Shown one piece after another: positions 2,002 through 28,135 of a DNA stretch of 44,523 nucleotides. The stretch spans positions 1-44,523 of the IMG/VR virus record IMGVR_UViG_3300032240_000358; one strand, written 5' to 3'. Position 1 is the first letter of the stretch. Every line of letters begins with the position of its first letter. Source of the stretch: a virus. Both the position numbers and the translations under genes were made by a program. Under the pieces are notes generated by a model. The model saw only the letters and a program-made list of their open reading frames with translations. It was not told the DNA's origin and made no database searches.

Positions 2002-2030
2002 TTGATGTATATGTCAAGTTGTGTTATACT
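2002..2030 (+). promoter_or_regulatory. Strong sigma70-type promoter with extended -10
   Basis: TTGATG at 2002-2007 and TATACT at 2025-2030 are separated by exactly 17 bases, and a TG at 2022-2023 gives an extended -10. An inverted repeat CTTGA-8 nt-TCAAG (2001-2018) overlaps the -35 and could be an operator; that part is inference. The predicted start site is near 2037, giving a leader of about 80 bases before the gene at 2116. It would be read by host RNA polymerase and would drive the DUF3150/MoxR/VWA module. Confidence 0.75.
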
Positions 2031-2074: not shown

Positions 2075-2095
2075 CTCACGGCAACGTGAGTTTTT
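2075..2095 (+). terminator. Leader hairpin with T-run (possible attenuator)
   Basis: The stem CTCACG / CGTGAG with a GCAA tetraloop is followed by TTTTT at 2091-2095. It lies between the promoter at 2002-2030 and the gene at 2116, so it would terminate or pause the new transcript after roughly 55 bases. It is related in sequence and loop type to the hairpins at 373-392 and 4211-4230 but is the only one with a T-run. Confidence 0.55.
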
Positions 2096-2115: not shown

Positions 2116-3030
2116 ATGGAACTACAAAAACCTCAGCACCTTATCAGCTTGGCGTCATCTGCCGTGCTTGTCTGTGTGGATGTCAACGTGTGGTCAGCAA
2201 CCAAGCAAGACCGAGTCATCAGTAATGAAGTTACTGTGGCAAAGCGTGCGGACAAGAACAGCGGACGGTTCGTTCAGAACCTGTTGGCAGACCATCCCAA
2301 GCACAAAGCTTTGCAGAACTATCGGCAGACCGTATATAACTGGCTTCAGCGCCGCACCTATCCTTGGAACAAAGGCAACCACTTGCTGCCATCGGTTGAC
2401 ATCCCATTGTTCAAGAAAGAATACAACGAGCATGAGCTAAAGTTCGCCTCACTGAAGCATGAGTTCTTAACTGACTATGACTCAATCGTCTCTGACATGG
2501 CGTTCAAGCAAGGCGATATGTTCAAGCGTGATGCGTATCCAGCTAAGGAACAGTTGGAGCATCGGTTCGCCATGCAGTTGTTCATCTCCGAAGTGCCGTT
2601 GAACGACTGGCGTTGTGGCATTGCCAATGACATCGCTGATGATTTGTTTGCAACATACAGCAAGCAAGCCGAGCAAATAGTGTCCAACGTGATGAGTGAG
2701 CAACAATCTAGGTTCATCGAGGTGATGGAGAGCATTAGCCATTGCTGCGGTGTCGAGGACATGGGCGTTGACGACAACACCGGAGAGACCAAGGTCAAGA
2801 AGCGCAAGATTTATGACTCTACTATCCAAAAGGCAAAGGATATGTGCGAGTCGTTCAAAGCGTTCAACCTGACTGGTAGTGCGGAGCTGGAGGAAGCGAG
2901 GGCGTCATTGGAGAAAACCTTGAGCGGTGTCGATGCGGAGTTAATCCGCGACTCTGACGCCGTGCGTTCTAATGTGAAGGAGGATGTGGACAATATCTTG
3001 TCGAAGTTCGGGTCGTTTAGCTGCGTGTAA
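2116..3030 (+). CDS. DUF3150-like protein, partner of MoxR ATPase
   Basis: This 304-residue protein is mostly helical after an N-terminal strand segment (VLVCVDVNVWSATKQDR, residues 18-34) that resembles the start of DUF3150, a family found in phages next to AAA+ ATPases. The body (about 90-220) is rich in long helices. Near residue 213 there is a Cys-Cys-Gly (SHCCGVED), followed by a charged VKKRK stretch. Its position directly before a MoxR-type ATPase and a VWA protein fits the known habit of MoxR systems to carry a helical substrate or adaptor subunit. The DUF3150 assignment is from pattern memory plus context. The start is the first ATG after the promoter and leader; only a weak GAGAG ribosome site is visible. 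Confidence 0.65.
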   Translation: MELQKPQHLISLASSAVLVCVDVNVWSATKQDRVISNEVTVAKRADKNSGRFVQNLLADHPKHKALQNYRQTVYNWLQRRTYPWNKGNHLLPSVDIPLFKKEYNEHELKFASLKHEFLTDYDSIVSDMAFKQGDMFKRDAYPAKEQLEHRFAMQLFISEVPLNDWRCGIANDIADDLFATYSKQAEQIVSNVMSEQQSRFIEVMESISHCCGVEDMGVDDNTGETKVKKRKIYDSTIQKAKDMCESFKAFNLTGSAELEEARASLEKTLSGVDAELIRDSDAVRSNVKEDVDNILSKFGSFSCV

Positions 3031-3086
3031 AAAGCGGCAATAAGTAGTAAATTTAGTATCAACCACAGTAAAGAAAGTATCTAATC

Positions 3087-4205
3087 ATGTCTAAAGTTAA
3101 TTTCCAGTTGAACGCAACCATTGACGAGTTGCGTACATTCATTCCGCTAGTAGGTTCAGAACTGACGGTGGTCATACAGTCAGAACCCGGCTGTGGCAAG
3201 ACTTCCCTTCTATCAATGATGGCTGAGGACAACGGCGACAAGTGGCGCAGCCCCAAGGATGGTGCGTCCATCGAGGGTGACAAGTTTGACTACGTGTATG
3301 TGGACTGCCCAGTCAAGGATATGTCTGACATAGGTATGACTATCCCCAACCATGCGACTAGGCAGTTAGAGTATTACGTGTCGTCTCTCTTCAACCTTAC
3401 AGACCCCAAGCCAAAGTTCATCTTGCTTGATGAGTTTATGAAAGCACCCAAGCTATTGCAGGTGGTGTTCACTCGCTTGATGTTGGAGCGCATGGTAGGT
3501 GACAACCCACTGCCACGTGGGTCAGTAATTATGGCGACATCTAACAATGCCTCTGATGGTGTGGGTGACTCCATGCTCGCTCATGCGGGTAATCGCGTGT
3601 GTCTCGTAAGAATGGCTAAGCCATCGGTGAATTCATGGCTGCAATGGGCATCGGCTAATGGCATCTCACGTGTCGTCCGTGCTTTTGTTGCTATGTACCC
3701 ACGCTGCATGGCATCGTACACCGAAGGCGATACACAGAAAGATAATCCATACATCTTCAAGCCATCGTCAGGCGCTATGTCGTTCGTGTCTCCACGTTCG
3801 CTGGCGAAGTGTGATGTCATCGTGAAGAACCGTGACCGCATGACTGAGAACATGGTACACGCAGGTTTGGCAGGTACGATTGGCTTGGCGGCGGCGGGTG
3901 ACATGGCGGCGTTTCTAGTGATGGAGAAATCTCTTACTGACGTGATGGACATCATCAAGTCTCCAATGACCATCCCCTTGGCTAAGGAGATTAGCGCGCA
4001 GTTGATGATTATGTTTCAGGCAGTAGATGTGTTGGAGACGCAAGACCAACTGTCCAAGTTCATGGAGTATGTGGAGCGTATCCCATCGCATGAGGTGCAA
4101 GGCGTGTTCTTCACCATGATGATGCGCAATCAGAAGTCTATCAAGCTGGCTCGTAATAACACCAAGATTGCGGCGTGGGCTATGAACAATCACGAGTTGT
4201 TCTAA
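3087..4205 (+). CDS. MoxR/CobS-like AAA+ ATPase
   Basis: This 372-residue protein has a Walker A motif SEPGCGKTS at residues 32-40 (Lys38), a Walker B motif FILLDE at 111-116 and a sensor-1 segment VIMATSN ending at Asn153. This is the order and spacing of a compact AAA+ module of the MoxR type. Phage homologues are often labelled CobS-like. Known MoxR proteins form hexameric rings that remodel or activate client proteins together with VWA-domain partners. Here the VWA partner is encoded just downstream at 4448-5743, and a DUF3150-like protein lies just upstream. No cobalamin pathway gene is present, so cobalt chelation is unlikely. The first Gly of the usual GPPGxGKT is Ser, a mild deviation. 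The gene starts 56 bases after its neighbour with only an A-rich ribosome site. Confidence 0.82.
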   Translation: MSKVNFQLNATIDELRTFIPLVGSELTVVIQSEPGCGKTSLLSMMAEDNGDKWRSPKDGASIEGDKFDYVYVDCPVKDMSDIGMTIPNHATRQLEYYVSSLFNLTDPKPKFILLDEFMKAPKLLQVVFTRLMLERMVGDNPLPRGSVIMATSNNASDGVGDSMLAHAGNRVCLVRMAKPSVNSWLQWASANGISRVVRAFVAMYPRCMASYTEGDTQKDNPYIFKPSSGAMSFVSPRSLAKCDVIVKNRDRMTENMVHAGLAGTIGLAAAGDMAAFLVMEKSLTDVMDIIKSPMTIPLAKEISAQLMIMFQAVDVLETQDQLSKFMEYVERIPSHEVQGVFFTMMMRNQKSIKLARNNTKIAAWAMNNHELF

Positions 4206-4206
4206 A

Positions 4207-4230
4207 CAAAGCCTCACGGAGACGTGGGGC
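4207..4230 (+). repeat. Exact 24-base repeat with GNRA hairpin (copy 2)
   Basis: This is an exact copy of 369-392. It contains the stem GCCTCACG (4211-4218), loop GAGA (4219-4222) and CGTGGGGC (4223-4230). It begins two bases after the MoxR stop codon and ends 29 bases before the next ATG. Sequence identity in non-coding DNA 3.8 kb apart points to a functional element or a recent copy. No T-run follows. Confidence 0.7.
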
Positions 4231-4259
4231 GCTATCTTATTACCTTTTCAGGAGAAGCT

Positions 4260-4448
4260 ATGGAATTCAGTCTAGCTGAAGTATTCCTTGTCGCATGGGC
4301 TGTCGTCATGACGGTGCTGTGGGTCAAGAGCAAGGAGGAAGCGCGGTTGTTCAGGTTCTTAACCATTATGAATCTACGCCGCCTAATCAAGAAAGAAGTT
4401 GAGTTGGTAGACACAGGTGAATCTTACGAATTTAAGGAGATAAAGTAA
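4260..4448 (+). CDS. Small single-TM protein between MoxR and VWA genes
   Basis: This 62-residue protein starts at an ATG preceded by GGAG at 4251-4254. A longer reading from a GTG at 4224 would run through the hairpin and is less likely. Residues 5-22 (LAEVFLVAWAVVMTVLWV) form one transmembrane helix, followed by a basic segment (LRRLIKK) and an acidic tail. The stop overlaps the ATG of the VWA gene (TAATG), which implies co-translation with the module. An anchor that brings the MoxR/VWA proteins to the membrane is an attractive but unproven idea. Confidence 0.65.
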   Translation: MEFSLAEVFLVAWAVVMTVLWVKSKEEARLFRFLTIMNLRRLIKKEVELVDTGESYEFKEIK

Positions 4449-5743
4449 TGAAAGACAAACAGACTACTCGCGTCAAGCGGGCACACATGACTATGTTCAA
4501 GCATCCGCAGACTGCGCTTTACTCAGGCGTTATGCTGATGGGTTCGAGCGAGGTCATTGACAACTGTCCTACTGCATACACCGATGGGGTGAACAAGAAG
4601 TATGGTCGCGCGTTCTTGGAGAGCATACCCAAAGACTCACAGGTACGTGGGCTGATACTCCACGAGAACCTGCACGTGGCACTCAAGCAAGTAACTCATG
4701 GTCGAGCGATGTTCGAGGAGAACCGCAAGATGGCGAACCTTGCTGCTGACTTCGTGGTGAATGGCATCATCAATAACATCACTGGGACTATTGCTGGCAC
4801 AAACAATGAGCGCATCGTTGAGTTGCCCGATGGCGGCGTCCACGATGATATGTTCAACGATTGGTCTATGCGTGAGGTGTTTAACTATCTCAAGAAACAC
4901 GCCAAGCCCAAGGGAAAGGGGGGTAGCGGCGGTCAGGGCAAGGGTCAAGGTAATCCCCCACCCTCGGGTGAGGGACAAGATAGTGATGAGGATGGAGAGC
5001 AATGGGAATCCGTGACTGTCAACGGCAAGACCTATGACTTGTCTAACTCAGACGAACACGACTTTGTAGACTTAGCTGACCTACCGCATGACAAGCAGAA
5101 GGAAATTTCTAACGAGATTGACCGTGCGCTGCGTGAAGGCGGCATCCTCGCTGGTCGCATGGGTGCGAATATGCCTAGGACTATCTCCGACTTGCTTGTA
5201 CCCAAGGTGGATTGGCGTGAGGCGTTCCGTGAGTTTATTAGCGCATCGACACGTGGCTCAGATGAGTACACATGGCGTCGCATGAACAAGCGTCACGTGG
5301 CTAATGACATCTATCTACCAAGCATGGAGAACGAGACATTGGGCGGGGTTGTCGTGGCTATAGATACTTCTGGCTCAATAGGCGAGAAGCAGCTTAATGA
5401 GTTCGCTACGGAACTGGTCTCAATTTGCGAAGTCGCCTCGCCTGAGCGGGTTCACATCATTTGGTGGGACGGTGAAGTGGCGGGTGTCCAAGAGTTCGTG
5501 GGTAATTACTCCAACATCAAATCTATGTTGAAGCCCGAAGGCGGCGGTGGAACTAGGGTCTCATGTGTCAGTGAGTACATAAATAAGCATCAGATTGCAG
5601 CCGACTGCGTGGTTGTGTTCACTGACGGGTACGTTGAGAACGACGTGAAGTGGGACATTACTATGCCAACTCTGTGGATGGTTACAGACTGTAAGTCTTT
5701 CGAGCCGCCATCTGGTAAGAAAATCATGGTGGACTATGACTGA
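4448..5743 (+). CDS. VWA protein with N-terminal HExxH motif (DUF2201-like)
   Basis: This 431-residue protein has three parts. Residues about 1-150 carry HENLH at 72-76, a zinc metallopeptidase-type HExxH, followed by NLAADFVVNG at 97-106, which is typical of the N-terminal part of DUF2201-like proteins. Residues about 153-185 form a Gly/Lys then acidic linker. Residues about 295-431 form a VWA domain with a full MIDAS: Asp306-x-Ser308-x-Ser310, Thr369 and Asp393 (TDGY). The ribosome site AAGGAGA is at 4434-4440. In characterised MoxR systems the VWA protein binds clients through a metal and the ATPase drives remodelling. The preserved HExxH suggests a protease may be built in, but peptidase activity is inferred only from the motif. 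It overlaps the next gene by eight bases. Confidence 0.85.
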   Translation: MKDKQTTRVKRAHMTMFKHPQTALYSGVMLMGSSEVIDNCPTAYTDGVNKKYGRAFLESIPKDSQVRGLILHENLHVALKQVTHGRAMFEENRKMANLAADFVVNGIINNITGTIAGTNNERIVELPDGGVHDDMFNDWSMREVFNYLKKHAKPKGKGGSGGQGKGQGNPPPSGEGQDSDEDGEQWESVTVNGKTYDLSNSDEHDFVDLADLPHDKQKEISNEIDRALREGGILAGRMGANMPRTISDLLVPKVDWREAFREFISASTRGSDEYTWRRMNKRHVANDIYLPSMENETLGGVVVAIDTSGSIGEKQLNEFATELVSICEVASPERVHIIWWDGEVAGVQEFVGNYSNIKSMLKPEGGGGTRVSCVSEYINKHQIAADCVVVFTDGYVENDVKWDITMPTLWMVTDCKSFEPPSGKKIMVDYD

Positions 5744-5936
5744 TAAGTGGACGCCTATAAAAACAGAGACGGGTATTTCTGTTCGCATGGCCCCACAGTT
5801 AGCTGATGCACTACGCGAGATAAAAGGCGAGATGTCTCATATGCATGCGCTAACAGAACTGATGCAATCTAGTAGGGAAGATGCCAAAAAACTTTGGAGA
5901 GCCGTACTAGAGGAGTTAGATAAACATGGCAAATGA
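5736..5936 (+). CDS. Small tandem paralogue A
   Basis: This 66-residue protein is one of three adjacent related genes. It shares with the next gene the segments ALREIKGEMSH and LEELDKHGK at the same positions and a similar total length. It is helical and charged, without Cys or membrane segments. The ATG lies inside the end of the VWA gene, so it is translationally coupled to the MoxR/VWA module. No family is recognised. A small adaptor, inhibitor or substrate of that module is inferred from linkage only. Confidence 0.65.
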   Translation: MTDKWTPIKTETGISVRMAPQLADALREIKGEMSHMHALTELMQSSREDAKKLWRAVLEELDKHGK

Positions 5937-6130
5937 ATGGGACTGGACTAGGACTACCAACTACGCAATCCGCAAAGCCCCGCAGGTAGCTGCGGCACTA
6001 CGCGAGATAAAAGGCGAGATGTCGCACCTCTATGCGTTGTTGCAAATGGTTGACAGCGAAGATGAAGAAACCAAAAAAATATGGAAGGTAGTACTAGAGG
6101 AGTTAGATAAACATGGCAAGTGAATGGGAC
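5808..6130 (+). repeat. Tandem gene duplication, 187-base offset
   Basis: Two pairs of near-identical segments mark a duplicated unit. Bases 5808-5836 equal 5995-6023 over 29 bases, and 5904-5943 match 6091-6130 at 39 of 40 bases. Both pairs are offset by 187 bases, which is one base more than a multiple of three. This explains why each copy runs in a new frame and overlaps the next by 11 bases. The DNA identity is higher than the protein divergence in between, suggesting a fairly recent duplication or local gene conversion. Confidence 0.85.
5926..6123 (+). CDS. Small tandem paralogue B
   Basis: This 65-residue protein begins MANEWDW and shares ALREIKGEMSH and LEELDKHGK with the preceding gene. 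Its start overlaps the upstream stop by 11 bases and its end overlaps the next start in exactly the same way. The middle (LYALLQMVDSEDEETKKIWK) differs from copy A in charge. Its ribosome site GAGGAG (5910-5915) lies within the shared repeat, so the duplication carried the translation signal with it. Function unknown. Confidence 0.65.
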   Translation: MANEWDWTRTTNYAIRKAPQVAAALREIKGEMSHLYALLQMVDSEDEETKKIWKVVLEELDKHGK

Positions 6131-6376
6131 GTGATTGGAGATAAACCTCGCTCATGGGAATACGCCGTTGCAGAAGCTATCTATATAACGGAGGGTAAGA
6201 ACGCCCATCTATATGTGCTAGAAAAATTAACTAATGGGAGCCATGATTCCTTTGTATCAGGTAAGGGCACTGTGAGTTGGACAGACTGGCGCAAAGTGTT
6301 AGACCATCTAGATTTTTTTGAAAGGAAAGAAAGTGAACTCATTAAACTACAAACGACTGACAAGCATCACGAATAG
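6113..6376 (+). CDS. Divergent third paralogue C
   Basis: This 87-residue protein starts MASEWD, like copy B's MANEWD, and keeps HLYVLEKL and WRKVLDHLD in the positions where copy B has HLYALLQM and WKVVLEELD. An insertion of about 15 residues (SHDSFVSGKGTVSWTD) separates these segments. It is therefore a more diverged member of the same tandem set. Its C-terminal tail is Lys/Glu-rich and overlaps the start region of the next gene. Homology to copies A and B is my reading of these short matches. Confidence 0.6.
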   Translation: MASEWDVIGDKPRSWEYAVAEAIYITEGKNAHLYVLEKLTNGSHDSFVSGKGTVSWTDWRKVLDHLDFFERKESELIKLQTTDKHHE

Positions 6377-7310
6377 TGTCACACCCTATCGTGGGGCGGC
6401 AAATAGGTTCCCTCTCGGAAACCGCAAGGAAAGCCACAAGTATTTTCTTGTCGGTAAGGAAGGTGTCGAACCCATATTCAACATCGTGTATGGGTACAAG
6501 TATGACAGGAAACTTATATCCAAAAATGAATACGACAAGCTAATGTCAGAGGGGAAAAACAGCACAGGGATAACGGACGGCATCTACTACGTGTGGCATA
6601 AAGTGCCTGACATAGTTGGTCGAGTGCGCTCTGACAATAGCTTTCAGTTCACTAGAGACTCTTACAACCAAGGACACAATCACTTTCTAGAGCAGTTTTC
6701 CGCTGGCTACTTTTCTAGCGACTCACGTAGAGGTGGACTCATATATAGCGAGAGAAGTACGCCGTATATGCTACCTATATACAAAGGTATGCGTGTTGAC
6801 TGCGAGACTATGAGACCGCTTGAGCCGTTGGTCATAACAGGCAATCGTGTCGATAGGAAAGCTTCTAAAGAGTTGATGTCTAGGTTCAAAGACTTCTTCA
6901 CCATTTCTGAGACCATGAGCAAGGTCATGACTATGGAATCGTTCCTAGAAACAGCTATGACTGTCTATCATGAATACAACGGCGGGGGGGTTAAAGAGGA
7001 CGAAATCCTAATGAATACGGCTGATACCTTAATACGTGATAAGCCGTTGGATGCAATGTTCTTATACATGATTGCGTGTGACGCTGGGAGGGTAGGCAAC
7101 TACGTGCATAGCGATGGTAGGTGGAGTCGCCCTGAGTCTATCGACGCAGCGTATACGGCAATGAAGCGCAGGCTAGTCAAACATCTGTACGAGACTAATA
7201 AATCAATCTTCAAGGATGTTGAGTTCAAGCTAGGTGAGCCGCTACCCAGTAGTGAGTGGGGTTATAAGTTGACAGTTAACGGTAGAGAAGTTATCCAATA
7301 CGGAGCATAA
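6333..7310 (+). CDS. Unrecognised phage protein, 325 residues
   Basis: I do not recognise this protein. The best start is a GTG at 6333, preceded by AAAGGAAAG at 6321-6329; an earlier in-frame TTG at 6318 has no ribosome site. The sequence is soluble, rich in Lys, Tyr and Ser, with an N-terminal region of alternating strands (residues about 10-180) and a more helical C-terminal half (about 190-300). No Walker, HExxH, PD-(D/E)XK or Cys motif is seen. It overlaps copy C and is followed after two bases by another unrecognised gene of similar size, so the pair may act together. Confidence 0.65.
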   Translation: MNSLNYKRLTSITNSVTPYRGAANRFPLGNRKESHKYFLVGKEGVEPIFNIVYGYKYDRKLISKNEYDKLMSEGKNSTGITDGIYYVWHKVPDIVGRVRSDNSFQFTRDSYNQGHNHFLEQFSAGYFSSDSRRGGLIYSERSTPYMLPIYKGMRVDCETMRPLEPLVITGNRVDRKASKELMSRFKDFFTISETMSKVMTMESFLETAMTVYHEYNGGGVKEDEILMNTADTLIRDKPLDAMFLYMIACDAGRVGNYVHSDGRWSRPESIDAAYTAMKRRLVKHLYETNKSIFKDVEFKLGEPLPSSEWGYKLTVNGREVIQYGA

Positions 7311-7312
7311 AC

Positions 7313-8227
7313 ATGGACTATTTATTTCTTAATGGGTTTCACACGCCCGAGATTGAAGAAGAGTTGAAAGCATCAAGTATCTACCCACTGATACGTGAGA
7401 TAGTATTTAAGTACGAACTGCGTGTGTTGAAGAAAATGGATTCGTGGTGGTTCCTATGCCACAAGAACGGCACGGTGTTGGGCAAAGCGTCAACGAGAAT
7501 GAACGATGACAACAAGCTAGAGTATCAATACTACTCACCGTATCTACTCAAGGCGCGGGGTTCTGACAGTAATGATAAACACACGGCACGTAGTACGAAG
7601 ATAAGTGTGCTGATGGCATCACTAAAGAGACTTGATGCTATCCCCAATCAAGATACCGCAACTCGCGACCAGCTACTACCTGCGTTGAAGAACAGCATGT
7701 CTATCGCTAGGAGGTCGCTTGGCAATTCAAACAAACACGTCAACGTGAGCGCTAATACTGTTCACGCATTGTTAGCGTGTTTCTTTAATGAGGACCCCAA
7801 TAGTCTTGGACTATCAATTTCCGAAAAAGAATGTAAAGATTTGTTTGACAAACTCAATGAAGCTGATAGAGTCAGGGGTATGAAAGAGCAGCTAGTCATG
7901 GACTTGTTTTACAGCCCCTTCTACGTGGTGAGTGTAGATGGGTTCAACGACATCTCTGTTGGCAAACTGAAAGTAACCGAGATTAAAGATGAAGAGCCGG
8001 TCTATGAAACTATCGAGCCATTGCGCCGGTATAAAAACATAATGGAAGACTACCCTGCGCTAGTGCCAATCCTCACTATGGTGAAGGTTGCCTATGAAAG
8101 CAATGTCAAACTGGCTGGTGGGTACATACCTATCACGGATGAATACAACGCACCACTGAGCGCAACATTCAGCTACGACAGGGCGCTTAGTTCCTATGAC
8201 TCTATCTTTATGGTGACCCCATGCTAA
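7313..8227 (+). CDS. Unrecognised phage protein, 304 residues
   Basis: This protein begins two bases after the preceding stop, with GGAG at 7302-7305 as ribosome site. The N-terminal 75 residues look like a mixed alpha/beta domain containing WWFLCHKNGTVLGKAS. The middle (about 90-190) is helical, and the C-terminal third returns to strands (YVVSVDGFNDISVGKLKV). No catalytic motif is visible. Its stop overlaps the start of the VRR-NUC gene, placing it in the same operon as nucleic-acid enzymes. Function unknown. Confidence 0.65.
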   Translation: MDYLFLNGFHTPEIEEELKASSIYPLIREIVFKYELRVLKKMDSWWFLCHKNGTVLGKASTRMNDDNKLEYQYYSPYLLKARGSDSNDKHTARSTKISVLMASLKRLDAIPNQDTATRDQLLPALKNSMSIARRSLGNSNKHVNVSANTVHALLACFFNEDPNSLGLSISEKECKDLFDKLNEADRVRGMKEQLVMDLFYSPFYVVSVDGFNDISVGKLKVTEIKDEEPVYETIEPLRRYKNIMEDYPALVPILTMVKVAYESNVKLAGGYIPITDEYNAPLSATFSYDRALSSYDSIFMVTPC

Positions 8228-8529
8228 CCCCCGAGCGCAAGGTCAAGGAAAAAGTTAGGAAGGTACTCAAGGCGTTGGACGCCTACTACGCCATGCCTGC
8301 TACGGGTGGGTATGGTAGTAGCGGTGTGCCTGACTTCCTTGTTTGTCATAAGGGGAGATTCATCGGCATTGAATGCAAAGCTGGCAGCAACAAACCTACG
8401 GCATTGCAAGAGAAAAACTTACTCGACATTGAGCAACGTGGTGGCATTGCGATTGTTATTAATGAGGACAATGTAGATCGCCTATTACAGATATTACAGA
8501 CAGCATCACTAATGACAGGAAAGATATGA
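8221..8529 (+). CDS. VRR-NUC family nuclease
   Basis: This 102-residue protein matches the short stand-alone VRR-NUC form of the PD-(D/E)XK nuclease fold. A Gly-rich GGYGSSGVPDFL segment holds Asp38, and IGIECKAG holds Glu51 and Lys53; Gln63 follows in the next helix. Phage members of this family are thought to cut branched or flap DNA, such as Holliday junctions, during replication and recombination. Its neighbours (DUF3310 protein, polymerase) suit that role. It starts seven bases before the end of the upstream gene and overlaps the next gene by four bases (ATGA). Confidence 0.88.
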   Translation: MLTPERKVKEKVRKVLKALDAYYAMPATGGYGSSGVPDFLVCHKGRFIGIECKAGSNKPTALQEKNLLDIEQRGGIAIVINEDNVDRLLQILQTASLMTGKI

Positions 8530-20476: not shown

Positions 20477-20654
20477 GTGGATGTTTCCATTTAGCGGTAT
20501 GGAGATTGGTGACAGCTTCTTCATACCGACCCTCCGCTATGCCGAGATGATCTATGCGCTAGATTGCGGGGCAAAGCGTGAGGGCATCCTAGTTAAGTCG
20601 TACATCACCCACAAGGATGGTCACCTTGGGGTGCGTACTTGGCGCGTTCGTTAG
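20460..20654 (+). CDS. Small hypothetical protein, last gene of left arm
   Basis: This 64-residue protein starts at an ATG inside the primase-helicase gene (an in-frame TTG one codon earlier is an alternative). It has a beta-rich look: MEIGDSFFIP, then CGAKREGILVKSYITHKDGHLGVRTWRV. Similar short phage proteins with a 'GDSFFIP' strand and a C-terminal 'GxRxWRV' are common and uncharacterised. Its TAG stop shares bases with the TAA of the convergent giant gene (20651-20654), so the two arms meet with no spacer. Confidence 0.7.
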   Translation: MILEPEWMFPFSGMEIGDSFFIPTLRYAEMIYALDCGAKREGILVKSYITHKDGHLGVRTWRVR

Positions 20655-23600
20655 GGCGCTACGCCGTATGCCTTAATAGTGCTAATAAACTGATGCTTAG
20701 CCATGTTCTGCTGCAAGATATTTATCCGTAGCAGTTGCTCACGTAGTTTGGGGCTATACCCAGCGCCACGTATTTCATTTGCTTCAGCGCGTAGCCTATT
20801 TATATTGGCTATTTCTGAATGGTACAGACCGACCGCCGCATCAGCCATTGGGTTATTAGCAGTGAATTTAGCAAAGGCTACTGGGTCCTTATCCTCTAAC
20901 GTCTTGATGCGCTGACCCAAGTCTTTAACCTTAGTTTCTACCGAAGTAAACTCGCGCGAGTCTACGTTGGACTTAGAGCCAAAGAAAGAACCGAGCAAGG
21001 GTATGTCCGACTTAGGATTAAAAATCTTCTCGCCCTTAGTTAGGTTCACCCAGCTGTAGCTAGATTCTCCTATCCGAGAGATACCATCCATATAGCTGTT
21101 AGCAAAGAAGTACATAGTGTTGGGACTCATATCCCATGCACCTTGCGTAGATGTGTACACACTACGCGATGCGTCTTTGTATAACTCAGGAATCTTGTCG
21201 CCGCCTGTGAATGCTTCACCATACTTGCGGGTATTAGCGCTATTGATAGCCTGACCAATACCGTTTGTATTCATGAGGTACTCAAACAGGGGGCGTAGCG
21301 TTGAGGGTGTAACGCTGTCTATCGCCCACTTCAAAGGCGAGTCAGTAGGAGGTATCCTAGATACTGGGATAGGCAAGAACGAGTCAGACAGAATCGACAT
21401 ACCAATGTTGCCAAGTCCCTGACCCAACGAAGTCTGCCCGTGCATCATGCCGCCAATCTGCGCTCCGATAGCTGCAAACGCGCCAAGTCCATAGCCCCAC
21501 GGCATCTGTAACACAACGTCCTTGGAGTCCTTACCAAATATCAGTTTAGACACAGCATCTGGGATGTGGAACCTAGCAAACTTTGTCCACTGCTGCATGT
21601 CGTCAGACCGCACAGAGTTACGCTTCCACTCATCGTCAGGAGCCATCATCATTGACATCAAGTACGCAACGTACCCCATGCCCATCAAAGCCCCTGTCAT
21701 AACCTGTGCATTTGTGCGCAGCTTCTTGTAGTTTGCTATGTACTTCGCCGCTGCTACCGGATCATCTTGGATATTACCGGGCATGCTACGCTTCATCATG
21801 TCTTCAGTCATGAATGCAGGAGCCACGGTCTCAATAGCACGTGCTGCACCCATAGCCGAGGGACGGAAGAACATGTAGGCAGCGCCAAGTTCACGACCGT
21901 AATCCCCTACCTTTTGGAAGTTGGCTAGATTCAATGTCTCTGCCGCAGCTTGTACCGCAGCCGCTTCTTCCGCTGGCGACATCTCATTATTTGGGCCTTT
22001 TTGGTCTGACATACCAGCGGCCTTGTTTGCTGCATACATCTTCTCTTTGAACATTGAATACGCAGCCGTGCGGCTTGTGAATTCAAACATGTTGTTCCAA
22101 GTATCAAGTAACGCATCAACCTGATCTTTTTTAGCCAAAATCTTATTGCGTTTAATCTCAGATAGTTTTTCGTAGTTAGCCTTTAAGTTCATGCTCTCTA
22201 TGTACGCAGCCCTACCGCCAAAACGTAGCATCTCTACCATGTCTTTGGCAAATGGGTCTTTGTTTACTAGGGCAAGCAACTGCTTTTGGCTGGCTGCATC
22301 GGTCTTATCAAACAGGTGCGCAACCTCCATTGCTTTACCAAGCCCGTTACGCAGGACACTACTAGCAATGTCTTTAACATATATGAGCGAATGCGCTGGC
22401 CCCAATTTACCGCCGCCGATGTTCCATGCGTTGGTTAACAAATCAACGACAAAGTTCTTAGGTGCGAAGTTCAAGTTATATCGGGTATGCATCGAACCAA
22501 AAAACGACGTGATGTTATTTGCAGCGTCAAGCAGGATGTTGTTCTTCTTGTACGAGTACCGGATTGCCGATGCTAATTTAGGTTCAAGAATCCTAATGAC
22601 ATCTATGGAACCATCTTCGTTGTAATGGAACACCGTATTGCTACTGCCTTTGTACTGCTGCAACTTAGAGGTTTCGCGTTCTGGAAACTTAATGTTGTCC
22701 ACAACTTCAGCGTTAATAATCCCAGTGCCGTTAGGGTTCTTAACCTTATCGTATTTAGCTGAGTTTTTAAGTGCCTCAGTAGCCTTAACCACTCCAGCAC
22801 GGTGCGCTGCGCGGAAAGAGTCATACATGACCTGCAAAAGCGGGTTATCCGACACGCTCATACGACCACTAGTAGCATATTCAGTATCTACCAAGGTCTT
22901 GCTCTTGCCTTCGGTCATGCGGCTAGGGTCAATCATCTTATCCATTACGTGCGGTTCTTTAGTCTCGTTGAACTTGGACAGACCTTTAAACGGCACATAG
23001 TGCTGATAGTTGTACATACCCAACAAGTTATCCACAGGGGTAGACCAATAATTACCTATTTGATTAAGCTCTTTTGTAGCATCAGTCAGCTCCTTCACCG
23101 AAGCAAAAATCTTCTGGATAGCATCTTTACGTTCTTGTGGCATCGCGCCATATTCTTGCCTACGAATGGCTACTTCACCTTTGTCAATACCAAGCACGTT
23201 GTATATGTCGTCTTCTTTTTTCAGTCCTACGCCTGCTTTTTTGTTATCAGCGCTAAACGTAAGCCCCCTAGGTGAGTAGCCGCTGTAGTCAGCGTGGGTA
23301 TTAGCAAGCCCTGTGAGAAGGCTCCAGAAGTTTTGTTTCTGTGCGTCAGTCAACTTGTATTTATGGATAATCCCCGATGCTCCGGTAGATGGGTCACCCA
23401 AAATGGCTGTACGTACATCAGCCGCGCCCATCTGCTTGCCGAGGAAGGTCACCGCTTTAGGCCCGGTCTTCTCCGTGCTAAAAGGCACGGTAGTAACCCA
23501 CTTAACTGTGCGGCGCTCATCCTCGCTAAACATTTCAGCCAGCATGTGGAAGTCAATAAAAGCCTCGTCAGTATCCCCATCTCTAAACGCATTGGTATAT

Positions 23601-26600
23601 TCTTGAAACGCTACTTTAAGGTCCCCAAGTGGTTTAGATAGGTAATGGGTAACGTAGTTCTGTATTACGGACGTTGAGGTGTCCATATGTTCAGTGAAGT
23701 TGTTGAACGCCTTAGTCATATCGCGGATAATCTTGCCGCCTAAATCTTGGCGCGCCCACAGGCTTCTAGCTTCATAGGTTTTATCTACGGCAACCCGTGC
23801 AATATTCCTCCATCCAGCGGTGCTGAATAGCTTTTTAAATACCCCACCATTTCCCGACTTACCGGTTTCTTTCTCAGTAGTCTTGTACGCTTTACGCGAC
23901 TCTTTCTTTTCCATGCCGCCTTCGCGTGGCGGCGCTTTAATCGGTGGATTAGATGGAGTTGGAGTTTTCTTAGCCGACAGGTCTTCCAGCGCAATCGCGC
24001 CGGTCTGGGGAGCCATGATGTCCTCAAACGCTGCGGCAATCTCCATTAAGAAGTTTTGGTTCTCAGACCCTGTACTGCCTCGGAACAAAAGACCTTTTAA
24101 AGATATTCTTTCTACCTCTGCTCTTTGACCTGAAGCTCTAATAGCTTCATTTTCCTCTTCGTTTTCGGTTTCGGTTTCTTCCCCATTAATTACTTGTTTA
24201 ACTGCTTTATACCCAGCAGTAATTAAGTCGGCAATACTTAACTTAAATGCAGTCCATGCAGATTCGGGTTTAGTAGATATGTTACTTACATTAGTAACCC
24301 GCTGCTTGCTCTCATTAAATTGTTTAATGAATTGCGTTCTACGTAATTGGCCTTTTAACCCCGGCATATCACGTAAATTCTGTGGCATGGCTTCTTGCGC
24401 CGTTATACCAACAAGATAATTAATTTTGCTAGTGCCCGGTAGATTCATATCCGCCAAAGCATCTTTAAAACTTGAATCAGTCAGAGCATACGAGACAAAC
24501 TCGTAGATATCCTCATATGCGTTGGGGAATCTCTCACCAAGAACTTTTTTGGTCAAGACCATTATCTTTAACAACTGCTCCGCACCAGCTTTTTGCGCTG
24601 CGGTAAGAGAGTCTCTATTGCCTTCAAAGTACGTGTGGAGTACTTGTATAGTTACAGCATGGATAGCCTCATGCAACAAAATTTCAGGCTGCGCAGACCT
24701 GATAGAAATCTTGCCAATTTTGCCTTCACTCACATGGCTTGGGTCATACTGCCCTAAATCATTGTTTGATAATTTATTGACAAGTACCAAAAGGGGAGGC
24801 GACTTCATCCCCTGCAACATAGAACGCACTGCCTTTGCAATAATCCGGTTAAACGGACTTACGGACTTCATCTGGCTAATGTGGCCTAGCGCACCAGACA
24901 AATCTCCGTCGGCAATATATGATTTAAGCTTGTCGTAGTCGTTAAGAGTATTTTTACTAACGCGCTCTTCTCCGCTACCAAAACGGGCAGGTATTCTTTC
25001 ATTTGTATATGGATCACGCTCAATTTCGCCAGTTTCAGGGTCAATTTTAGGACGCCAGCCTTTAGTAGCTTCTTCACGTTTTTTAGTATCTACTTTAGTT
25101 TGTTCTGCAATGCGGTTTAACCGGTCTTGAATCTCTTGACCGATGCGCAGTTTCTCTTGCTCAGATATGGCTTTATTCTGTTCATTGAGGTACTGGGCCA
25201 AATTTCCAAATGACCGATCTAGCTGCAGGCCAGACAAATTGGTAAGGCCTTCTCTAAAAATTTCTTTGGCGTGGTCAGACAGGTCCTTCCACTCGGGGAA
25301 CTTAGTCTTGTACTCTTTACCCAATAAGGTACGAGTTTCTGTATATGCGTTAGATACGCGCTGTTCGGCGTTATCCATCCCGTTCAGCTTTGACCGATGC
25401 TCCATCAGCGCACGCGCAGCTTTGCGGTGTTCTTGCTTGCCGCTACCGAACGTCAGCTTACCGTTCACTACGGGACCAGCTGTAATGCTGCCAAAGTAAA
25501 CATCTTTATCTGAAGCCGACAAGTCCTGCCACCTAGGCATGTCATTAATCTCGGGACCAAGCTGGGTAAGGGCGCTTTCTGCTGCTATCAACTTCTCATG
25601 TAAATTGGACTCTTCTTCCAGCGCCCTACTTGCAGCATCTGTAAGTCTAAGCAACTCACTGTCAGTTTTCTTTAAGCGCCTTGTAGTAGCGTAGTCTGCA
25701 GCCTCAACGTCCTCTTTAATACCTTTAGATTTTTTGTAGGCTTCCACTGCGGTAATTGCAGCATTTGCACGTTTAGTAGCTTCTCTGTACAAGTTATTAG
25801 CAATCTGGCGCGCTTTCTCAAGGACGGGCAGCGCTGCATTACGCTTGTCATTAGCTTCTCGCGCTTTAGCATCATGCTCAGCCTTCTGTTCCAAGTACAG
25901 CGCTTTGTCTTCTTCAGATACTTCGTACTTGCCGACATCAGCCTTATCTGACATCTCAGTCAATTTAGCTTTATGCGCCGCTTGCTCTTTCTCTTCGTTT
26001 TGTGCAATCCCATTAGCTATTTCTTGATTAAGCTCTGGACTTAAATCAGGGTCGTACTCATACGCCGTTGTTTCTGATGGGCGAATCTTTTTCAGTTCTT
26101 GCAGTTCTTGCTGAGCGGTTTTCTTTGCGCTAAGTACTCGGCCTTGGGGGGCCGTAGTCAGAGGCATCCCATGTTTCTTTTCTAATGAATTAATAGTCTG
26201 TAAAGACTTTGTATCGTTAGGGTTAGCGTTGTATTTAGTTAATTCAGCGTCATAGAATTTCTGCGTTGCCGGCATCATAGGCTTAACAGGCGCAGAAGGG
26301 GGTGGCGGTGGAGGCGTAACGGGTGGTGTTTGTACTAGATCAGATGGACGTTTACCTTCAGTAGGAAATACAAACTCATTAAGCCCACCATGCCCTTTAG
26401 CAGCATGTTGAGCTATTACTTCAGCCGGTAAAGTTACATTTGTAACCGTTCCAAATTTTGCAGCTTTGGCAGGGTCAGTTGTCCACCATTGGCCTCCAGC
26501 TACATTTTCCTTATTTTCGCCTCGATACAAAGTTACTTGTTGCCCCGGTTGCATCGTATCCCATGTTATTGGGGCTGTGGACGATTTTTGTCCTTGCGGC

Positions 26601-28135
26601 GTTGTTTGCTTGGCTTCAGTGGTTTCATCGACATTGGCAGTTCCATTTAAATCAGGTATATCAGTGAGTTCATCGGCAGCATTCTTGTTATCCATGTAAT
26701 TACGCAGCGCCGCCATAGCGTCAATGCGAGTCTTACCCGGCTTAGATTTAGGAAGTTCAATCCCTAAGTCTTTAATCAACTTTAATAGTTTATTAACGGT
26801 AAATTCACCGCCCGCTTTGCCTGTAGCAATATTTCCTTCTTGGCCTACTGGAAACTTGGATACAAAGCTATTTGCAAGGACTTCTAGAGGATTATCCCCA
26901 GCAGTCGCGCTAGGCGAGGCGTTGAACTGTTTCTCAAGCTCTTCGTCAGAGATAGTCTGTGCTGAAGCCTTAGTTCCAGCTTTAGTAAACAAGTCTTTAC
27001 CGATGTTTTCACCAGTGTTAGGGCCAGCTGCAGCAAGCTCTTTAGCAATCTGCTCTCGTTTAGCCCCCAGAGCTTCTCTGCCGCCAGACACCGCGCCCAT
27101 ACCCAAACCAGCCAAGCCTTCCATAGTGGCCTGACCAGCAACACCCTGCATGGTTGGTACATCAAAGCCTAGGCGCTGTTGCGCAAGGTTCTGGGCCATC
27201 TGCTCTTGACCGCCTTCAGCAGCTTCTCCTAAAAATTCTTTACCAGCAGTAATAGCGCCATGTTTAATTACGCCACGCTTAGCTGCCTCGACAGCGGCTT
27301 TCTCAGTAGCCAGCTTGACCGCTTCTTTTTGCGCTGCGGTGGAGGCAATCCCTTTGGCTAGTTGCCGCGCTATGACAGGCTCTGCCCCACTTGCTCCACC
27401 AACGGCTCCAAGCCCTGCGCCAAGCAGAATCTGATCTAAGTTCTTACCGTTGTAGGCTTGTGCTTGAACTGCAGCCTTCTCAATTTGCTCAGGCGTCAGC
27501 TGAGTTTTTTCGCTAAGAATTTGCTTAGTCGCATCGTAGATAGAACCTTTAATAGTACCCGCACCCATCGCTGCGCCAGTACCCAGCGTTGCCGCACCAG
27601 CCACAAGAGGCGCGCCGCCGGTCAAAGTTGTTCCCAGTGCAGCAAGAATAGCGGGCGCAGAAGTACCAAGTGCATTAGCAAGAAGGTCTACGGGGGCTAC
27701 GCTAAACGCTTTAACACCAGCCAGTACTTGGTCAGCGACGCCTTTGTCTTCCGCATCTTTCATAATGCGGGCAATCTCTTGGCTATCCTTTTTAGACTGT
27801 GCGCTGTACAGATCAGCAATCCAGTTCTCAACCCCCCTAAGATTCTGGGATACAGGGTTATCTGCGCCAAACGCATCCGCTATTAAACGGACACCAGTTA
27901 CTGCTCCAGCCCCAACCTTCAACGGCACATCAGCAATTTGGCGTGGGATACCACCTAGGATTTCCTTATTCGGTTCTTGTGGTGGAACCAAGGGAGCAGC
28001 CTGAAACCCTACCTTTTGGTAGAAATCATTTACCGGTATGTCAGAGTAGAACTTACTGTGTAGTCCATCAACAAGTTCTTTATCCGGCAAATCGTTGTAC
28101 TGGGGGTACTTTTGCCGAATATCTTGGATGTTCAT
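20651..28135 (-). CDS. Giant polyvalent virion protein: ART-like, HExxH peptidase, LPD38-like
   Basis: This 2494-residue protein is the largest in the window. Residues about 70-350 are Gly/Ala-rich with hydrophobic, glycine-zipper-like stretches that may insert in membranes. Around 532-590 an ADP-ribosyltransferase-like pattern occurs: VTLYRGE with Arg538, then GGQWWTTDPAKAAKFG at 548-563. Residues about 680-1050 are coiled coil. HEAIH at 1155-1159, with acidic EDIYEF following (Glu1208/Glu1212), is a gluzincin-type metallopeptidase signature. From about 1860 onward the sequence resembles the large-polyvalent-protein domain LPD38 (RTAAYSMFKEKM, RELGAAYMFFRPSAMGAARA). Polyvalent proteins are thought to be injected with the DNA to counter host defences. 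The catalytic Glu of the ART could not be placed. The start follows AGGA in a TAATG overlap. Confidence 0.8.
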   Translation of the reverse strand: MNIQDIRQKYPQYNDLPDKELVDGLHSKFYSDIPVNDFYQKVGFQAAPLVPPQEPNKEILGGIPRQIADVPLKVGAGAVTGVRLIADAFGADNPVSQNLRGVENWIADLYSAQSKKDSQEIARIMKDAEDKGVADQVLAGVKAFSVAPVDLLANALGTSAPAILAALGTTLTGGAPLVAGAATLGTGAAMGAGTIKGSIYDATKQILSEKTQLTPEQIEKAAVQAQAYNGKNLDQILLGAGLGAVGGASGAEPVIARQLAKGIASTAAQKEAVKLATEKAAVEAAKRGVIKHGAITAGKEFLGEAAEGGQEQMAQNLAQQRLGFDVPTMQGVAGQATMEGLAGLGMGAVSGGREALGAKREQIAKELAAAGPNTGENIGKDLFTKAGTKASAQTISDEELEKQFNASPSATAGDNPLEVLANSFVSKFPVGQEGNIATGKAGGEFTVNKLLKLIKDLGIELPKSKPGKTRIDAMAALRNYMDNKNAADELTDIPDLNGTANVDETTEAKQTTPQGQKSSTAPITWDTMQPGQQVTLYRGENKENVAGGQWWTTDPAKAAKFGTVTNVTLPAEVIAQHAAKGHGGLNEFVFPTEGKRPSDLVQTPPVTPPPPPPSAPVKPMMPATQKFYDAELTKYNANPNDTKSLQTINSLEKKHGMPLTTAPQGRVLSAKKTAQQELQELKKIRPSETTAYEYDPDLSPELNQEIANGIAQNEEKEQAAHKAKLTEMSDKADVGKYEVSEEDKALYLEQKAEHDAKAREANDKRNAALPVLEKARQIANNLYREATKRANAAITAVEAYKKSKGIKEDVEAADYATTRRLKKTDSELLRLTDAASRALEEESNLHEKLIAAESALTQLGPEINDMPRWQDLSASDKDVYFGSITAGPVVNGKLTFGSGKQEHRKAARALMEHRSKLNGMDNAEQRVSNAYTETRTLLGKEYKTKFPEWKDLSDHAKEIFREGLTNLSGLQLDRSFGNLAQYLNEQNKAISEQEKLRIGQEIQDRLNRIAEQTKVDTKKREEATKGWRPKIDPETGEIERDPYTNERIPARFGSGEERVSKNTLNDYDKLKSYIADGDLSGALGHISQMKSVSPFNRIIAKAVRSMLQGMKSPPLLVLVNKLSNNDLGQYDPSHVSEGKIGKISIRSAQPEILLHEAIHAVTIQVLHTYFEGNRDSLTAAQKAGAEQLLKIMVLTKKVLGERFPNAYEDIYEFVSYALTDSSFKDALADMNLPGTSKINYLVGITAQEAMPQNLRDMPGLKGQLRRTQFIKQFNESKQRVTNVSNISTKPESAWTAFKLSIADLITAGYKAVKQVINGEETETENEEENEAIRASGQRAEVERISLKGLLFRGSTGSENQNFLMEIAAAFEDIMAPQTGAIALEDLSAKKTPTPSNPPIKAPPREGGMEKKESRKAYKTTEKETGKSGNGGVFKKLFSTAGWRNIARVAVDKTYEARSLWARQDLGGKIIRDMTKAFNNFTEHMDTSTSVIQNYVTHYLSKPLGDLKVAFQEYTNAFRDGDTDEAFIDFHMLAEMFSEDERRTVKWVTTVPFSTEKTGPKAVTFLGKQMGAADVRTAILGDPSTGASGIIHKYKLTDAQKQNFWSLLTGLANTHADYSGYSPRGLTFSADNKKAGVGLKKEDDIYNVLGIDKGEVAIRRQEYGAMPQERKDAIQKIFASVKELTDATKELNQIGNYWSTPVDNLLGMYNYQHYVPFKGLSKFNETKEPHVMDKMIDPSRMTEGKSKTLVDTEYATSGRMSVSDNPLLQVMYDSFRAAHRAGVVKATEALKNSAKYDKVKNPNGTGIINAEVVDNIKFPERETSKLQQYKGSSNTVFHYNEDGSIDVIRILEPKLASAIRYSYKKNNILLDAANNITSFFGSMHTRYNLNFAPKNFVVDLLTNAWNIGGGKLGPAHSLIYVKDIASSVLRNGLGKAMEVAHLFDKTDAASQKQLLALVNKDPFAKDMVEMLRFGGRAAYIESMNLKANYEKLSEIKRNKILAKKDQVDALLDTWNNMFEFTSRTAAYSMFKEKMYAANKAAGMSDQKGPNNEMSPAEEAAAVQAAAETLNLANFQKVGDYGRELGAAYMFFRPSAMGAARAIETVAPAFMTEDMMKRSMPGNIQDDPVAAAKYIANYKKLRTNAQVMTGALMGMGYVAYLMSMMMAPDDEWKRNSVRSDDMQQWTKFARFHIPDAVSKLIFGKDSKDVVLQMPWGYGLGAFAAIGAQIGGMMHGQTSLGQGLGNIGMSILSDSFLPIPVSRIPPTDSPLKWAIDSVTPSTLRPLFEYLMNTNGIGQAINSANTRKYGEAFTGGDKIPELYKDASRSVYTSTQGAWDMSPNTMYFFANSYMDGISRIGESSYSWVNLTKGEKIFNPKSDIPLLGSFFGSKSNVDSREFTSVETKVKDLGQRIKTLEDKDPVAFAKFTANNPMADAAVGLYHSEIANINRLRAEANEIRGAGYSPKLREQLLRINILQQNMAKHQFISTIKAYGVAP

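Follow-up and report, generated by a model that had tools for sequence, protein, structure and literature searches.

A DUF3150-related protein encoded in fixed order with a MoxR-type ATPase and a HExxH-bearing VWA protein in a freshwater phage, and a counterpart gene trio on plasmids

The stretch of DNA analysed here, referred to as the window, is the IMG/VR virus record IMGVR_UViG_3300032240_000358 of 44,523 bases, which belongs to a freshwater phage. Four plus-strand genes at 2116–5743 were followed up: D, encoding a DUF3150-related protein of 304 amino acids (aa) (2116–3030); A, encoding a MoxR-type AAA+ ATPase of 372 aa (3087–4205); T, encoding a membrane-type protein of 62 aa with one hydrophobic segment (4260–4448 counted from an ATG, the mechanically called open reading frame starting at a GTG at 4224); and V, encoding a DUF2201 protein of 431 aa (4448–5743). 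The original prediction had described them as a phage-borne chaperone-protease module. The open reading frames and the ATPase motifs were present, the HENLH motif at residues 72–76 of V and the five residues of the metal ion-dependent adhesion site (MIDAS) were found where it had placed them, and its interpretation was supported in part, as shown below.

V is a DUF2201 protein, and both domain models matched it above the curated cut-off (PF13203, 9e-26, 91.4 bits against a cut-off of 23.2; PF09967, 2e-18, 67.3 bits against a cut-off of 26.4). Pfam and the structure model divided it into an N-terminal putative metallopeptidase domain and a C-terminal VWA domain. The HENLH motif (4661–4675) lies within a predicted helix at residues 63–78, and Asp101 (4748–4750), which is part of a NxAxDxxxN motif and probably the third metal ligand, lies in the next long helix (residues 93–110), a predicted secondary structure that is compatible with a HExxH-plus-third-ligand arrangement. 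The N-terminal half was modelled with block pLDDT (predicted local distance difference test) values of 83–96 over residues 1–150. In the VWA half, the MIDAS comprises DTSGS at residues 306–310 (5363–5377), Thr369 (5552–5554) and Asp393 (5624–5626). In a set of 53 V proteins, in which the relatives were 47–78% identical to V of the window, H72, E73, H76, D101, D306, S308, S310, T369 and D393 showed no variation. Within this lineage, each of the 144 V proteins examined had HExxH, as did V of 12 annotated phage loci, among them those of N4, PA5oct, Vequintavirinae, cyanophages, Bacillus phage G and a Staphylococcus phage. Besides, the NxAxDxxxN motif recurred in N4 gp25 (NYACDIYIN) and in most other phage relatives.

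The VWA half of V aligned with solved VWA domains with a Z score of 12.7 over 137 residues, and the Foldseek matches of V included MDN1-MIDAS and NorD of the NorQD complex. The fold searches with V returned no solved zincin, the lists being filled by VWA matches, and a sequence search of solved structures found no relative of V. As in MoxR/VWA chaperones, a VWA protein with a MIDAS is thus encoded next to an ATPase. The PHROG family phrog_1314 and many RefSeq phage records label the DUF2201 family 'HNH endonuclease', N4 gp25 (3165–4307 of the N4 stretch) included; nothing that we saw supports this name.

A matched phrog_1297 at 1e-49, and its top sequence match among solved structures was Midasin (E 2e-6); none of the Pfam AAA models matched it above cut-off. 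It carries the full AAA+ motif set of a MoxR-type ATPase, with Walker A (SEPGCGKT, residues 32–39; 3180–3203), the Walker B acidic pair D115-E116 (3429–3434), sensor 1, the NR arginine and the sensor 2 region. S32, G35, G37, K38, D115, E116, N153, N154, N169, R170, P236 and R237 were invariant in 46 ATPases, and residue 39 was Thr or Ser. The original prediction of a MoxR-VWA pair with an intact HExxH was borne out. The catalytic and metal-site residues do not vary in either protein set.

D was predicted to be mostly helical, and it scored 11.4 bits against DUF3150 (PF11348), under the curated cut-off of 24.9, so that the 'DUF3150-like' label it had been given depends on profile-profile evidence. 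Among 51 D proteins, 18 matched DUF3150 at E values up to 1, the best being 3.8e-4. A profile-profile alignment (hhalign) of D with plasmid DUF3150 proteins gave P 4.7e-6 over 227 columns, whereas pairing D with unrelated controls yielded 0.15 or worse, and the best viral fold match of the D model was a protein named DUF3150 domain-containing (E 9e-15). These comparisons show D to be remotely homologous to the plasmid DUF3150 proteins, and it is classed here as DUF3150-related, not as a member of DUF3150. The helical DUF3150-like partner of the original prediction was thus upheld.

Relatives of D were found only in IMG/VR, in the cyanophage MinM2 (by profile) and, remotely, on plasmids. No relative of D was found by a sequence search of solved structures, Foldseek matched the D model to no PDB entry at an E value below 0.6, and tblastn of D against annotated phages gave no match. 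The D profile gave no match in 398 genomes either, in a search that had no positive control and is uninformative. The VIA-align rows for D (best Z 9.2) were within the range of common helical arrangements and were set aside. An identity of D with VMAP of the VMAP/iSTAND ternary MoxR-vWA conflict systems was rejected, only 2 of the 51 D proteins touching VMAP-M1 (E about 0.1). Hidden homologues of D were also looked for among the Schitoviridae genes between A and V and in the 'anti-sigma factor' next to V in Vequintavirinae; both candidates were rejected.

Every one of the 88 distinct related loci whose sequence extended far enough showed the order D-A-V, and a second set of 59 loci, partly overlapping the first, showed it without exception. 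The co-occurrence of the three genes, the absence of which in related genomes would have counted against the module, was therefore strict in this lineage. T behaved differently from the other three genes. It had detectable homologues in some loci and was replaced by a different small hydrophobic open reading frame in others, while in 23 of the 88 loci the gap between A and V left no room for it. Because T varies while D-A-V stays, it is not a defining part of the module, and the proposal that it serves as a fixed membrane anchor was not sustained.

Matches to a DUF3150 protein were found in 1,168 plasmid records, and 978 of these are predicted to be conjugative. In the loci inspected, those of seven plasmids and pCAR1, a MoxR/AAA ATPase was encoded upstream of DUF3150 in all eight, and a VWA protein directly after it in seven, the exception being a Vibrio furnissii plasmid. 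Genes for SSB, RecT or Bet, and a lambda-type/YqaJ exonuclease were located near the trio in most of the inspected plasmids. HExxH was present in the VWA protein of IncC and IncP plasmids (translated) and of three further bacterial contigs, and the plasmid and contig VWA proteins scanned matched VWA, CobT or CobT_C models. In pCAR1 (ORF101–103), the gene between the MoxR and VWA genes is annotated DUF3150; the MoxR and VWA genes of this plasmid were noted in 2009, and the cluster is conserved in R478, Rts1, SXT and R391 (PMC2642839). The plasmid cluster (pCAR1, IncC and others) thus contains the same three kinds of gene as the window, with a VWA protein bearing HExxH and a MIDAS-type motif. 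It differs in gene order (A-D-V versus D-A-V in the window), in its ATPase, which is of the AAA_5/CbbQ_C type, and in its VWA protein, which matches CobT and has HExxH...LEDxRIE, whereas V of the window matches DUF2201 and has HExxH...NxAxDxxxN.

Within the window, the four genes are found at the head of a plus-strand replication arm that extends to about 20.5 kb and encodes, downstream of them, a DNA polymerase A, a PD-(D/E)XK nuclease and a SNF2 helicase, as well as a DUF927 protein. The minus-strand arm, from 20.6 kb onward, is the strand of the virion genes and encodes an SU10-type adaptor, an M15 peptidase and a 2494-aa protein (20651–28135), whose sole Pfam match is the LPD38 polyvalent-protein domain near its C-terminus. 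As the original prediction had remarked, there is no cobalamin context: among the window genes scanned, no cobalamin gene was recognised near the trio. V matches DUF2201 and not CobT, so that neither part of a CobS/CobT cobaltochelatase assignment was found.

A sigma-70-type promoter, TTGATG-N17-TATACT (2002–2030, plus strand), precedes D and is retained in close relatives as TTGACT-N17-TATACT. The region contains fewer promoter-like sites than its shuffles (6 compared with 14.4), so the site by itself proves little. The end of V (5743) overlaps the next gene (5736–5936), and the transcription unit therefore probably extends past V toward the replication genes. Thus, of the single operon under its own promoter that had been proposed, the promoter stood, being conserved in relatives, but the unit does not end at V.

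The leader between promoter and operon (2031–2115, about 85 nt) carries a short hairpin, CTCACG-GCAA-CGTGAG (2075–2090, plus strand), followed in the window by a T-rich tail. All 28 aligned leaders retained four stem pairs, and at two of these pairs the changes were compensatory, the stem CAC/GTG changing to CAT/ATG in step; the hairpin matched no Rfam family. A plain terminator is doubtful. Because the T run of the window is not retained in the closest relatives, a regulatory or stability role appears as likely as an attenuator. The leader hairpin is a variant, CTCACGGCAACGTGAG, of a 20-nt hairpin of the same type, GCCTCACGGAGACGTGGGGC, which lies between A and T (4211–4230, plus strand) and is identical in two intergenic gaps (373–392 and 4211–4230). 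The copies of GCCTCACGGAGACGTGGGGC and CTCACGGCAACGTGAG all have GNRA-type loops, and the hairpin core pattern occurred 18 times (up to 2 mismatches) compared with 2.9 expected.

Directly 3′ of V, two small genes (5736–5936 and 5926–6123) are tandem paralogues that share two 66–67-nt blocks with 83–87% DNA identity. The genes at 6336–7310 and 7313–8227, without a Pfam match above cut-off or a PHROG match, usually follow V in relatives, and a small gene (8221–8529) comes next after them in most related loci. The products of 6336–7310 and 7313–8227 are possible further partners of the trio.

MoxR rings engage a client through the MIDAS of their VWA partner. By analogy with RavA-ViaA, NorQ-NorD and Midasin, we infer that D, A and V may form one AAA+ remodelling complex. 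A would form an ATP-powered ring, and the VWA half of V would use its MIDAS metal site to dock on this ring or on the client. A metal, probably zinc, would be held by the HExxH half through His72, His76 and Asp101, and this half could cut or partly unfold a protein target, acting either as a peptidase or as a metal-dependent grip. D, as the probable third subunit, may serve as an adaptor, either delivering the target or linking V to A. Expression of the complex would be driven by its own host-type promoter, together with that of the replication genes. The target would most likely be a protein that is bound to phage DNA, or on which this DNA depends, while it is replicated or recombined. This is suggested by the location of the trio in the replication arm, by its own promoter, by the plasmid neighbourhood, and by the transcription of N4 gp24 and gp25, the counterparts of A and V, as middle genes (PMC4193335). 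Taken as a whole, a remodelling complex with a zinc-peptidase domain and D as adaptor, acting on a replication or recombination protein, is the reading that we tentatively put forward, at somewhat less than an even chance.

Several observations weigh against this reading. Gene neighbourhood is no proof of function, and D was undetected in N4 and the other non-cyanophage loci examined. The profile link of V to the plasmid CobT-like proteins (P 0.034) is suggestive only and was aligned only around TDG...HExxH, and A was not close to the plasmid ATPase families, aligning at Walker A only; because these families are not close, the phage and plasmid trios may have joined DUF3150 independently. The annotation of PA5oct marks the ATPase of its related pair, along with structural proteins of that phage, as detected by mass spectrometry, and structural genes lie near the pair in some phages, namely in cyanophage S-TIM61, where Hsp20 is also near, and in roseophage RPP1, where the homologues of gp24/gp25 have genes for four virion proteins in their vicinity (PMC4193335). 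These last findings fit a chaperone-protease for virion assembly, in which the MoxR/VWA pair would mature or clip a structural protein, a role suggested for the group 2.2 jumbo phages on the model of the MoxR-vWA system that the archaeal virus ATV needs for tail assembly (PMC7824862). However, the trio of this phage and of its relatives heads the replication arm, with the virion genes encoded on the opposite strand, the N4 pair is transcribed with the middle genes, and the counterpart trio is present on conjugative plasmids, which build no virion. A role in virion assembly is therefore regarded as rather unlikely.

The early position of the genes, their host-type promoter and their occurrence in phages and conjugative plasmids alike would also suit a protease for takeover or counter-defence that eliminates or inactivates a host protein in the early phase of infection, and peptidase-bearing MoxR-vWA modules are used in conflict systems (PMC7159879). 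That the trio is so strictly conserved in one lineage, and that the pair belongs to the core of N4-like phages, points instead to a constant target and not to one in an arms race, and no link to defence was found, which makes this explanation unlikely. The resemblance of the VWA half of V to NorD, and the matches of the plasmid partners to CobT and CbbQ_C models, raise the alternative of a chaperone like CobS/CobT or NorQ/NorD that aids the insertion of a metal or cofactor into an enzyme of phage or host, HExxH being then a metal site without protease function. Neither the window nor the plasmid stretches contained a recognisable cobalamin, NO-reductase or CO-dehydrogenase gene, and Glu73 of HExxH is never lost; we consider cofactor insertion very improbable.

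The proposed remodelling complex can be extended to the plasmids. DUF3150 would then be the dedicated third subunit of an AAA+/VWA/metallopeptidase machine that processes proteins on replicating or recombining phage and plasmid DNA, for example by clearing bound or cross-linked proteins, with SPRTN-p97 as a functional parallel, and this machine would have arisen around DUF3150 on two occasions, with partners of the DUF2201 type in one case and of the CobT type in the other. As a general statement this is speculative, and we would not expect it to hold in full. It nevertheless provides one testable hypothesis for the phage and plasmid versions, since the third component is shared with plasmids that spread antibiotic resistance, and this shared component ties the plasmid trio to the recombination module of SSB, RecT and exonuclease. 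For testing the hypothesis, phage N4 and plasmids of the pCAR1 type offer laboratory systems. The ATPase/VWA-metallopeptidase pair itself belongs to the N4-like core and to hundreds of phage records, in which it is often mislabelled 'HNH endonuclease'.

The A-V pair is not new. It corresponds to N4 gp24-gp25 and to the pair of group 2.2 jumbo phages, and since it is already in the literature, the module of the original prediction is not a new kind of system. The window V profile recovered N4 gp25 (5e-32) and the window A profile gp24 (9e-20), both core genes of N4-like phages (PMC4193335, PMC7650795), with gp25 listed as a vWFA protein. The main text of the CRISPRi-ART paper, which covers N4 and EdH4, is without a passage on the gp24/gp25 pair. 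In the group 2.2 jumbo phages of a 2021 survey (PMC7824862), the VWA protein is, like that of the window, fused to an N-terminal metallopeptidase domain and encoded beside a MoxR ATPase. V was matched in 652 phage records. A search of genome contigs with V gave three loci, one of them a weak match. A contig of Spiribacter salilacus contained, at 5872–8140, a close A-V pair (profile E 4e-83 and 2e-102), which may be chromosomal or prophage, with no detectable D, and a 7.6-kb contig of an actinobacterial metagenome-assembled genome, possibly phage DNA binned with the bacterium, encoded a V protein 65% identical to that of the window.

The less familiar part is D and its plasmid parallel; our literature search of 5.39 million texts found no paper naming DUF3150, although older or subscription papers may do so. 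RavA-ViaA, NorQ-NorD, CbbQ-CbbO and Midasin (Rea1) share with the window a MoxR-type ring and a VWA/MIDAS partner, and are without DUF3150; to our knowledge, no HExxH domain has been described in the VWA partners of RavA, NorQ, CbbQ and Midasin. In the N4, Schitoviridae and Vequintavirinae loci examined, no D was detected, nor was DUF3150 detectable beside the MoxR-DUF2201 pairs in the bacterial contigs examined, whereas the window adds D in a fixed order. MoxR, DUF3150 and VWA-like genes are all present in Synechococcus phage MinM2 (OQ594354), whose DUF3150 protein matched the D profile at 1.5e-19; there the order is A-D-V with small genes between, compared with D-A-V in the window. DUF3150 thus seems to accompany a MoxR/VWA/HExxH module on mobile elements, its VWA partners seemingly being of the DUF2201 type in this phage lineage and MinM2 and of the CobT type on plasmids.

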